A DNA stretch of 64,000 nt from Gammaproteobacteria bacterium. GTDB taxonomy: Bacteria > Pseudomonadota > Gammaproteobacteria > GCA-001735895. Position 1 is the stretch's first letter; every line of letters starts with the position of its first letter. The DNA is taken from positions 1-64,000 of the forward strand of contig JAOTXY010000007.1 of NCBI GenBank assembly GCA_029862125.1, given 5' to 3'. The position numbers were made by a program, and so were the translations under genes. This document shows positions 29,868 to 38,159 of the stretch, piece after piece. Below the pieces are notes generated by a model. It was given only the letters and a program-made list of their open reading frames with translations, was not told the origin of the DNA and did not search any database.

Positions 29868-30305
29868 ATGGCAACTACCAAGAAAACTGCAGCGAAAAAG
29901 AAATCCGCCGCGAAAAAATCCGCACCAAAAAGCAAACGGGCGACGCGTAAAAAGGCACCGGCCAGGAAAGCCAGTGTTAAAAAGAAAAGAACGGTCACAA
30001 AACGCAAAGTTGCATCAAACAACCGCCAGGCATTACTCAAGAAACTGCGCGAAGATTTAAAAGCGACCAGGGCGAGCCTTAAAAAAGCGAGAGCAGCTGC
30101 TAAAGAAGAACTTAAACTTGTTAAAGCGTCTGCAAAGGCAGAAGTCGACCTGTTAAACGATAATCTCAGAAGCGCATTAAAAAGAGAACAGGCGCTGTTA
30201 AAACTGGGAGAACAGAAAGCCAAAATGATGATTGCTGCCGGCCAGCGCTGGGAGAAAAAGCAGGTCGCAAAAATCAGAAAATTAGCGGCAAAAAAATCCA
30301 GATAA
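29868..30305 (+). CDS. Lys/Ala-rich histone H1-like DNA-binding protein
   Basis: A 145-residue, strongly basic protein. The first ~55 residues are a Lys/Ala/Arg-rich, presumably disordered tail of repeated AAKKK/AKK units (TTKKTAAKKKSAAKKS). Residues ~55-125 form a charged coiled coil (LREDLKATRASLKKARAAAKEE). The C-terminus returns to Lys-rich sequence. The tail resembles bacterial histone H1-like proteins of the Hc1/BpH1 and AlgP type, which bind and compact DNA; no enzymatic motif is present. It is monocistronic, at the edge of the flagellar block and divergent from flgG. The gap after it contains only a weak hairpin (30378-30385 with 30401-30408). Confidence 0.75.
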   Translation: MATTKKTAAKKKSAAKKSAPKSKRATRKKAPARKASVKKKRTVTKRKVASNNRQALLKKLREDLKATRASLKKARAAAKEELKLVKASAKAEVDLLNDNLRSALKREQALLKLGEQKAKMMIAAGQRWEKKQVAKIRKLAAKKSR

Positions 30306-30451: not shown

Positions 30452-31552
30452 ATGAAAAGACAGCTCTCAGCGATTCTGTATGCAGACGTGGCTGGCTACA
30501 GCCGTCTTACCGGTCAGAATGAGGAACAAACCCATCAGCAGCTAAATACCGGATTAAATCTACTCAGCGAAATAATTACGGCTCACGACGGCAGCAAAGT
30601 CCACGAAGCAGGCGACGCGATACTGGCTGAATTCTCAAGTGCAACCGAAGCTGTCGATACGGCGGTCGAATTTCAAAAGCAAATGGCCTCTCGGGATTCG
30701 GATCCGGGCGCAGGTGAGTTAATCGAGTTTCGGATTGGGGTAAATATCGGGGAAGTTATCCGCGACCGCGGTGACATCTATGGAGACGGTGTTAACATCG
30801 CCGCGAGAATTCAAGAAGTTGCGCCACCCGGCGGCTTATGTGTTTCGAGCGTGGTACTGGAGCAGTTATCGTCAAAAGACTATAACTATGATGATCTTGG
30901 CTACCGCAATTTTAAAAATATAGAACGGCCTGTTCACGTATACGAAATCAGGCTTCCTGACCTATCTGAACATCATCCGATGAAGGCAATCGAGACACGG
31001 GTTCAGGGTCAGCCCCTGTTTGACGATGCCATTGATAAACCGCCGATAACAGCAGGGCATTGTTCCTGTGGTTCGGTAACACTTGAAGTAACCCAGGAGT
31101 CACTGGGTACAGGATTTTGTCATTGCAAAATATGCAGACGTTGCACGGGGGCACCGGTATTTGCCTGGGCAGCCTTTCCCATCGAAGCGGTAAAATTTAC
31201 GCGCGATAAACCCAAGTATTACCGGTTGTCCTTAATAGCCGAAAAGGGATTTTGTAAAAAGTGTGGCTCCTTAGTAGTCTGGCGAGGCTTAAAACCTGAG
31301 CCCGCCAATTACTTCGCGGTCCCGACTGCTATCCTCGACAACCCGGAAGATTATGCCCCGACCTGGCATGGAGGAATAGAAAGCCAGATCCCCTGGCTGC
31401 AAATTCACGACGATCTTCCCAGAACACGTTGCACAGAATCGCCTTTTCTGAAGAAGTCATGGGGCTCGGTGGGCGCTTCCGACCCCGATGAATGGATATC
31501 GTTGGAGTACGAAAAGGCAAAGCAACTGGATGACGATTCGGCATCAAGTTGA
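30452..31552 (+). CDS. Class III nucleotide cyclase fused to a GFA/CENP-V zinc domain
   Basis: A 366-residue protein with two unrelated domains. Residues ~5-168 are a class III adenylate/guanylate cyclase: metal-binding D12 (YADVAGYSRL) and D55 (HEAGDAILAEF), and transition-state residues N115 and R119 (GDGVNIAARI), so it looks active. Residues ~200-320 are a GFA (glutathione-dependent formaldehyde-activating)/CENP-V fold with all cysteine clusters: HCSCGS (204, 206), CHCKICRR (223, 225, 228) and CKKCGS (268, 271). The cyclase part resembles soluble cyclases that usually carry TPR or other C-terminal partners. The GFA module may bind zinc or a thiol adduct and control the cyclase; this is inference. 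Start ATG at 30452. Confidence 0.88.
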   Translation: MKRQLSAILYADVAGYSRLTGQNEEQTHQQLNTGLNLLSEIITAHDGSKVHEAGDAILAEFSSATEAVDTAVEFQKQMASRDSDPGAGELIEFRIGVNIGEVIRDRGDIYGDGVNIAARIQEVAPPGGLCVSSVVLEQLSSKDYNYDDLGYRNFKNIERPVHVYEIRLPDLSEHHPMKAIETRVQGQPLFDDAIDKPPITAGHCSCGSVTLEVTQESLGTGFCHCKICRRCTGAPVFAWAAFPIEAVKFTRDKPKYYRLSLIAEKGFCKKCGSLVVWRGLKPEPANYFAVPTAILDNPEDYAPTWHGGIESQIPWLQIHDDLPRTRCTESPFLKKSWGSVGASDPDEWISLEYEKAKQLDDDSASS

Positions 31553-37523: not shown

Positions 37524-37646
37524 TTGCTATATCAACATTTCTTGCACTCTTACGTTGTAACTCAAATCCGATATGTTTGCGATGATAAACACAACTAAGG
37601 TTAAGATAGGCATGGAAGCACCTGGTTGATATTGAAGTCCGGCGTG

Positions 37647-38159
37647 ATGAAACTTATGAAAAGAATCGGCAACGCGATTGGCAGTTGTAATAAAACAAGA
37701 ATATTTATACTGATTACCATGCTGATTATTTCCAGCCAGGGCAAGGCATGGATTGCTTACGGCTTTAAAAGCGGTATGAGTCGTTTCGATGCCATTAGAT
37801 ACCTGTCTGAAAACGAGTTTTTAGTTGTGACTGACGGTTCACGGCAAACGTATGCCGGTCCCGAAGACAACAAAAAAAAATACAATTTAAACTATTGCTC
37901 CACACCTCAAAAATTATATTTAATGCAATATGACCTTGATGATTCGCTCCAGGCATTTGTTAAAACAAAAGAAAAATATGAAAGCAGGTACGGGGATCCC
38001 ACCCCGTTAAGTTATGAAGCAGATAATTGGGAAGCCGACAATTGGGAACTTGTCGATATTTCATTTATATGGGATTTAAATGAGTTTGAAACTATCGTGC
38101 TAACGCACAATGAAAATGGAACGCAAGCAGAATTTCAGGACCTGTCAGTTTGTAAATAA
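37647..38159 (+). CDS. Hypothetical secreted protein
   Basis: A 170-residue protein from the ATG at 37647 (MKLMKRIGNA); the frame is open for seven more codons upstream, and another ATG three codons downstream is possible. Residues ~14-35 form a signal peptide (TRIFILITMLIISSQGKAW). The mature part is acidic and aromatic-rich (IRYLSENEFLVVTDGSRQT, NWEADNWELVDISFIWDL) with two cysteines that could pair. The family was not recognised. The gene is clearly poorer in GC than its neighbours and follows tRNA-Leu, which suggests accessory DNA. Confidence 0.6.
   Translation: MKLMKRIGNAIGSCNKTRIFILITMLIISSQGKAWIAYGFKSGMSRFDAIRYLSENEFLVVTDGSRQTYAGPEDNKKKYNLNYCSTPQKLYLMQYDLDDSLQAFVKTKEKYESRYGDPTPLSYEADNWEADNWELVDISFIWDLNEFETIVLTHNENGTQAEFQDLSVCK

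Follow-up and report, generated by a model that had tools for sequence, protein, structure and literature searches.

A class III nucleotide cyclase fused to a GFA/CENP-V zinc domain is conserved in two distant bacterial groups

An open reading frame that runs from a class III nucleotide cyclase domain into a GFA/CENP-V zinc domain raises two questions: whether such a gene is authentic and, if it is, whether the second domain serves the first as a regulatory input. The frame lies in the window, the whole stretch of 64,000 nucleotides of gammaproteobacterial DNA analyzed here. A preliminary description had placed both domains in a single frame at 30452-31552; the coordinates proved exact, and both Pfam domains scored above their cut-offs, identifying a cyclase homology domain (Guanylate_cyc, E 3.2e-13, 50.1 bits against 21.9) and a GFA/CENP-V family domain (GFA, E 1e-18, 67.9 bits against 24.3). 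The nearest solved sequences are 3mr7 for the cyclase half (E 1e-33) and the CENP-V/GFA protein 8ajq for the GFA half (E 4e-9, or 6.8e-16 with the family profile). We hold with moderate confidence that the protein is a soluble class III cyclase whose C-terminal GFA domain acts as regulatory input, a reading in which we infer the activity, the nucleotide, the ligand, the direction of the effect and the gating by GFA. The features that bear on it are the following.

30452-31552, + strand: AC-GFA fusion gene, 366 amino acids plus stop, starting with ATG; an open reading frame with stop-free full-length homologues in 12 other genomes and dN/dS of about 0.01-0.10 in both domains in close pairs
30452-30955, + strand: class III nucleotide cyclase domain, residues 1-168 (Pfam match 7-155, PF00211, 3.2e-13; AlphaFold2 model compared with 5d0e and 3mr7)
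30485-30487, + strand: codon of D12, first metal-binding Asp, invariant in 13 fusions
30602-30604, + strand: codon of His51, the residue aligned with the adenine-specifying Lys; His in the nine gammaproteobacterial fusions and Lys in the four of the other class
30614-30616, + strand: codon of D55, second metal-binding Asp, invariant in the fusions
30773-30775, + strand: codon of D108, second base-contacting residue, Asp in 13 of 13 fusions
30794-30808, + strand: transition-state residues N115 to R119, conserved in 12 of 13 fusions; the G848 copy has Ile for Asn
30956-31048, + strand: linker, residues 169-199, partly helical, pLDDT about 57-59
31052-31369, + strand: GFA/CENP-V zinc domain, residues 201-306 (PF04828, 1e-18; 8ajq, E 6.8e-16 with family profile), modelled with pLDDT >90
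31061-31069, + strand: C204-x-C206, first half of the structural zinc site by homology (C31/C33 of Paracoccus Gfa; PMC4682968), in 13 of 13 fusions
31118-31135, + strand: C223-H-C225-x-x-C228, labile three-Cys zinc site (C52/C54/C57 of Gfa), in 13 of 13 fusions
31253-31264, + strand: C268-x-x-C271, second half of the structural zinc site (C99/C102 of Gfa); C268 in 13 of 13 fusions, C271 in 12 of 13, with Phe in G017
31370-31495, + strand: conserved tail, residues 307-348, consensus WLxIHDDLPRTRxxESPxLxKAWxSxGxxDP, common to fusions of both classes

The fusion is an authentic protein, conserved across two bacterial groups that are only distantly related. The same full-length, stop-free frame was recovered from seven congeneric genomes at 66-93% identity, from G253, a gammaproteobacterium outside this family, at 60% identity, and from four genomes of a different class, those in the order of G476, at 37-40% identity; the assemblies of these second-class carriers are of high quality, one of them being a single contig. 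In close pairs, dN/dS was 0.01-0.06 for the cyclase and 0.07-0.10 for the GFA half, indicating that strong purifying selection maintains both halves. A frameshift here, with orthologues kept as separate adjacent genes, had been named in the preliminary description as what would speak against a fusion. No frameshift was found, an artefact joining two genes was ruled out by the frame being stop-free in 12 other genomes, and with the open frame present in 13 independent genomes we attach next to no probability to an error of sequencing or assembly. Adjacency of separate genes does occur, in that G253 has a stand-alone GFA gene (L129:5592-6062, - strand) 18 bp upstream of a cyclase-TPR gene (L129:3651-5573, - strand), but these are non-orthologous paralogues, the pair was seen only once, and G253 carries the fused gene too. 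The pair may reflect chance, since it is the single such case among the 41 stand-alone GFA loci checked and both families are abundant in its genome.

The taxonomic distribution of the fusion is sparse. Carriers make up 8 of the 31 genomes of the genus, the window's own included, and none was found among 10 other genomes of the same family, so that the function, whatever it is, is dispensable. Counts in the large samples are lower bounds, as scoring was confined to the top 5-9 candidates of each genome and divergent fusions can be missed; they stand at 2 of 369 genomes in the class sample (window's own included), 4 of 245 in the order of G476, and one carrier besides the window's own genome in the phylum sample. 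Several places in plasmid records seemed in tblastn to cover both domains; the four that were checked (L043-L046) align with the cyclase only, in frames of 580-855 amino acids, and with the distant fusion as query no plasmid record reached 80% coverage. No relative was found in viral contigs.

Structure prediction bears first on the cyclase half. An initial AlphaFold2 model built from 9 rows was poor (pLDDT 54.6) and was superseded by one from 61 rows with a mean pLDDT of 88.3. Residues 1-170 of the latter superimpose on the Ma1120 cyclase of Mycobacterium avium (5d0e_B) with a Z-score of 25.7 and an rmsd of 1.5 A over 162 aligned residues, and the cyclase half on 3mr7 with a Z-score of 25.6 and an rmsd of 1.9 over 168. 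The predicted model thus shows the class III cyclase fold in this half, and since the matches listed in the PDB fold comparison fall there, the structural support covers the cyclase fold. Ma1120 and Rv1900c/LipJ (Z 25.0) share with the fusion both the fold and the layout of residues, whereas their partner domains are others.

Five of the six canonical catalytic residues are retained in the cyclase. The preliminary description had listed D12, D55, N115 and R119 together with three Cys clusters, and all are present; it had, however, passed over the base-contacting Lys, which is replaced by His51 (D108 being kept). Twelve of the 13 fusions have all four of the listed cyclase residues; the two metal-binding Asp and the Arg are invariant, the Asn is lost once (to Ile, in G848), and three of the four members of the second class have the full canonical set. 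According to the base-contact rule, Lys/Asp marks adenylyl cyclases and Glu guanylyl cyclases (PMC4215837). The Lys/Asp pair of cAMP-specific class III adenylyl cyclases is seen in the four distant members, while the fusion of the window has His51/D108; neither does it have the Glu that replaces Lys in guanylyl cyclases. As His/Asp matches neither rule, cAMP and cGMP are not to be told apart from the sequence.

The replacement invites the alternative that the cyclase half is dead or makes another nucleotide product, the protein being a nucleotide-binding or unusual cyclic-pyrimidine regulator. His51, the Asn lost in G848 and low-scoring hits to Pycsar cyclase models (PycC, best E 1.2e-6) are all compatible with it. 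We nevertheless regard it as very improbable, since the metal Asp pair and Arg never vary, and since Ma1120, in which the base-contact pair is Lys/Asp and Ala replaces the transition-state Asn, is naturally active (PMC4215837). His also occupies the Lys position in several cyclase-TPR paralogues of the same genomes, others having Arg with Glu at 108, which makes His51 a feature of the lineage and not of decay. PycC matches are moreover expected of any class III fold, and a Pycsar system pairs PycC with an adjacent effector: none adjoins the fusion in the window, where flagellar, lysine-rich and secF genes surround it, and none recurs in the other carriers. Class III cyclase-TPR paralogues are numerous in the genomes of L002-L008 and L016-L036, with His/Asp, Arg/Glu, Lys/Asp and Glu/Thr as base-contact pairs that apparently covary.

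The GFA half is likewise preserved. All seven zinc-ligand cysteines (CxC, CxCxxC, CxxC) are present here and in 12 of 13 fusions, and the ligands are conserved as well as those of stand-alone GFA proteins. Gfa of Paracoccus denitrificans (1X6M, 1XA8), of the same Pfam family and with the same seven cysteines, has been assigned a four-Cys and a three-Cys zinc; it binds glutathione with a KD of 500 uM, and displacement of the three-Cys zinc on glutathione binding has been proposed (PMC4682968). First described as an enzyme, Gfa was later seen as a possible glutathione carrier, and it did not catalyze S-hydroxymethylglutathione formation under standard conditions (PMC4682968). The fusion protein scored 12.5 bits against the S-(hydroxymethyl)glutathione synthase model TIGR02820 (NCBIfam), whose cut-off is 234.55. 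In contrast to Gfa and other stand-alone proteins, which have no cyclase, the fused GFA domains form a clade of their own with a distinct C-terminal tail.

This history of Gfa (PMC4682968) allows a bifunctional thiol-adduct protein in place of a sensor, in which GFA would chiefly act as an enzyme or carry glutathione and the cyclase would be a regulator or a co-localised second activity. The complete zinc ligands, conserved as in stand-alone GFA, agree with such a protein, as does the S-(hydroxymethyl)glutathione dehydrogenase (glutathione-formaldehyde dehydrogenase) present in 10 of 10 carriers tested, an enzyme so common in such bacteria that it does not discriminate. Yet carriers hold several stand-alone GFA proteins, so the chemistry needs no fused copy, and class III cyclases mostly comprise several domains, the additional ones serving to receive signals (PMC4626032). 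We therefore judge the bifunctional alternative rather improbable and retain GFA as input to the cyclase.

What joins the two halves is less uniform. The linker diverges faster than any other segment of the protein and is (at about 170-199) the lowest-confidence part of the model, whereas the tail is conserved, its distal part being confined to fused proteins and absent from aligned stand-alone GFA proteins. The genes that surround the fusion differ between carrier groups. In G000, G029, G016 and G026 it lies between flgG and secF, both on the opposite strand (names read from translations); in the remaining carriers it is sited elsewhere, and no partner gene recurs across carrier groups. In G017, G027 and G024 the fusion has an HDOD-family gene nearby, which was considered as a partner and rejected: most congeners possess this gene, in G000, G029 and G016 it is on a different contig, and Pfam shows no cNMP-binding domain in it. 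A gamma-glutamyl cyclotransferase-like gene (PF06094) divergent from the fusion was found in G024 only. Just upstream of the fusion and on the same strand, at 29868-30305 (+), is a Lys/Ala-rich, histone H1-like frame of 145 amino acids with no Pfam match, conserved in G029 and G026 and not at the G016 locus.

A short, variable linker predicted at low confidence and the lack of a conserved neighbour pointing to a stimulus are what would be expected if GFA were a structural or dimerisation module only, with no ligand gating and with cyclase activity constitutive or set by expression. That alternative is unlikely in our estimate, because the labile three-Cys site, which pure structure would not need, is invariant in all 13 fusions. 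Under the regulatory reading, retention of the fusion in at least 13 genomes of two classes, in changing neighborhoods and with no fixed partner, is what one expects of a sensor that is complete in itself and whose output diffuses. Plausible inputs and outputs are at hand, given that besides the dehydrogenase cNMP-binding proteins were found in 5 of 5 carriers tested (12 cNMP-binding-domain matches in the window's genome), although both are common.

The closest precedent for regulation by a C-terminal metal-binding domain is AC-YHS of Mycobacterium phlei (class IIIc, PMC4626032), a soluble protein with a single cyclase domain, a short linker and a small Cys-rich domain that is activated by copper in vitro. 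YHS is, however, another Pfam domain of about 50 residues, while GFA offers two zinc sites and a glutathione site; Pfam gives GFA and no YHS in the fusion protein, which thus lacks the copper-sensing domain of AC-YHS, and copper activation of the latter was measured, while regulation of the fusion protein is a proposal. Taken together with glutathione binding and the proposed zinc displacement in Paracoccus Gfa, this precedent underlies our proposal that GFA gates the cyclase through zinc/glutathione occupancy. The cyclase domain would form the usual head-to-tail homodimer and convert a nucleoside triphosphate, most likely ATP, into its 3',5'-cyclic form. In GFA, C204, C206, C268 and C271 would bind a structural zinc and C223, C225 and C228 a labile one, the latter displaced, by homology with Paracoccus Gfa, when glutathione binds. 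A change in glutathione, glutathione-adduct or zinc status would then alter the conformation of GFA and switch the cyclase via the linker and the conserved tail, the cyclic product acting in trans on ordinary cyclic-nucleotide receptors. The fusion protein probably senses stress inside the cell. The idea of a GFA-regulated cyclase, put forward in the preliminary description, stands as far as sequence can carry it, the sensing of thiols, aldehydes or zinc being the part that we infer.

Several observations count against a GFA-gated cyclase. The gammaproteobacterial group has His51 for the adenine-specifying Lys; the copies of G848 and G017 lack the transition-state Asn and one structural-zinc Cys, respectively, so that neither residue is absolutely kept; no conserved genetic partner indicates the signal; and the sparse distribution shows the function to be dispensable.

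Phylogenetic trees of the two halves tell different histories. Among stand-alone GFA proteins, the GFA domains of the 13 fusions fall into a single clade (support 89/88 with 36 rows and 94/81 with 59 rows), and when a fused-GFA profile was run on the phylum sample, stand-alone GFA proteins reached at most 127 bits and the fused protein of the other class 254, the latter being itself among the profile rows. The fused cyclase halves, by contrast, came together in no bootstrap tree (AU test p = 0.016): those of Gammaproteobacteria form their own clade (100/99) among the cyclases of that group, and the other four group with rhizobial-type cyclases. With one GFA clade and two cyclase lineages, in trees of modest sampling and several long branches, it is likely rather than proven that the GFA module was joined to a cyclase at least twice, or that one cyclase was replaced once. 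The pattern suggests that the pairing was selected repeatedly. Closest to the cyclase domain are AC-TPR proteins of about 590 amino acids in the same genomes, up to 55% identical over the domain and some with the same His/Asp pair, which differ in carrying TPR regions where the fusion has GFA; the C-terminal slot of these cyclases is consequently exchangeable.

We found no description of the cyclase-GFA architecture in the open-access literature, in agreement with the preliminary description, which knew of none. Its surprise at the architecture is tempered by the 1369 class III cyclase architectures counted in InterPro in 2015 (PMC4626032), against which one more domain combination is less surprising. 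It is possible, and we put it forward tentatively, that the fusions constitute a signalling family not described before, which arose on at least two occasions with different cyclases and places cyclic nucleotide synthesis under the control of a zinc/glutathione switch in GFA. If so, glutathione, aldehyde or zinc state would be coupled directly to a second messenger, and a response to thiol or aldehyde stress would be a new input to bacterial cyclic-nucleotide signalling. The function of the GFA/CENP-V domain is unsettled, and a cyclase linked to it is a simple and sensitive read-out of the GFA ligand, which could make the question of that ligand directly testable.

Other arrangements of GFA genes were seen in passing. 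In a Sinorhizobium meliloti pSymB record (L130:3510-4965), three tandem overlapping GFA family genes lie between cysS and a prolyl aminopeptidase gene, and two congeners, G013 and G003 (L092, L093), encode tandem two-domain GFA proteins of 282-313 amino acids. Elsewhere in the window, a frame of 177 amino acids at 37626-38159 (+) that adjoins queA and has no Pfam match may encode a secreted or exported protein.
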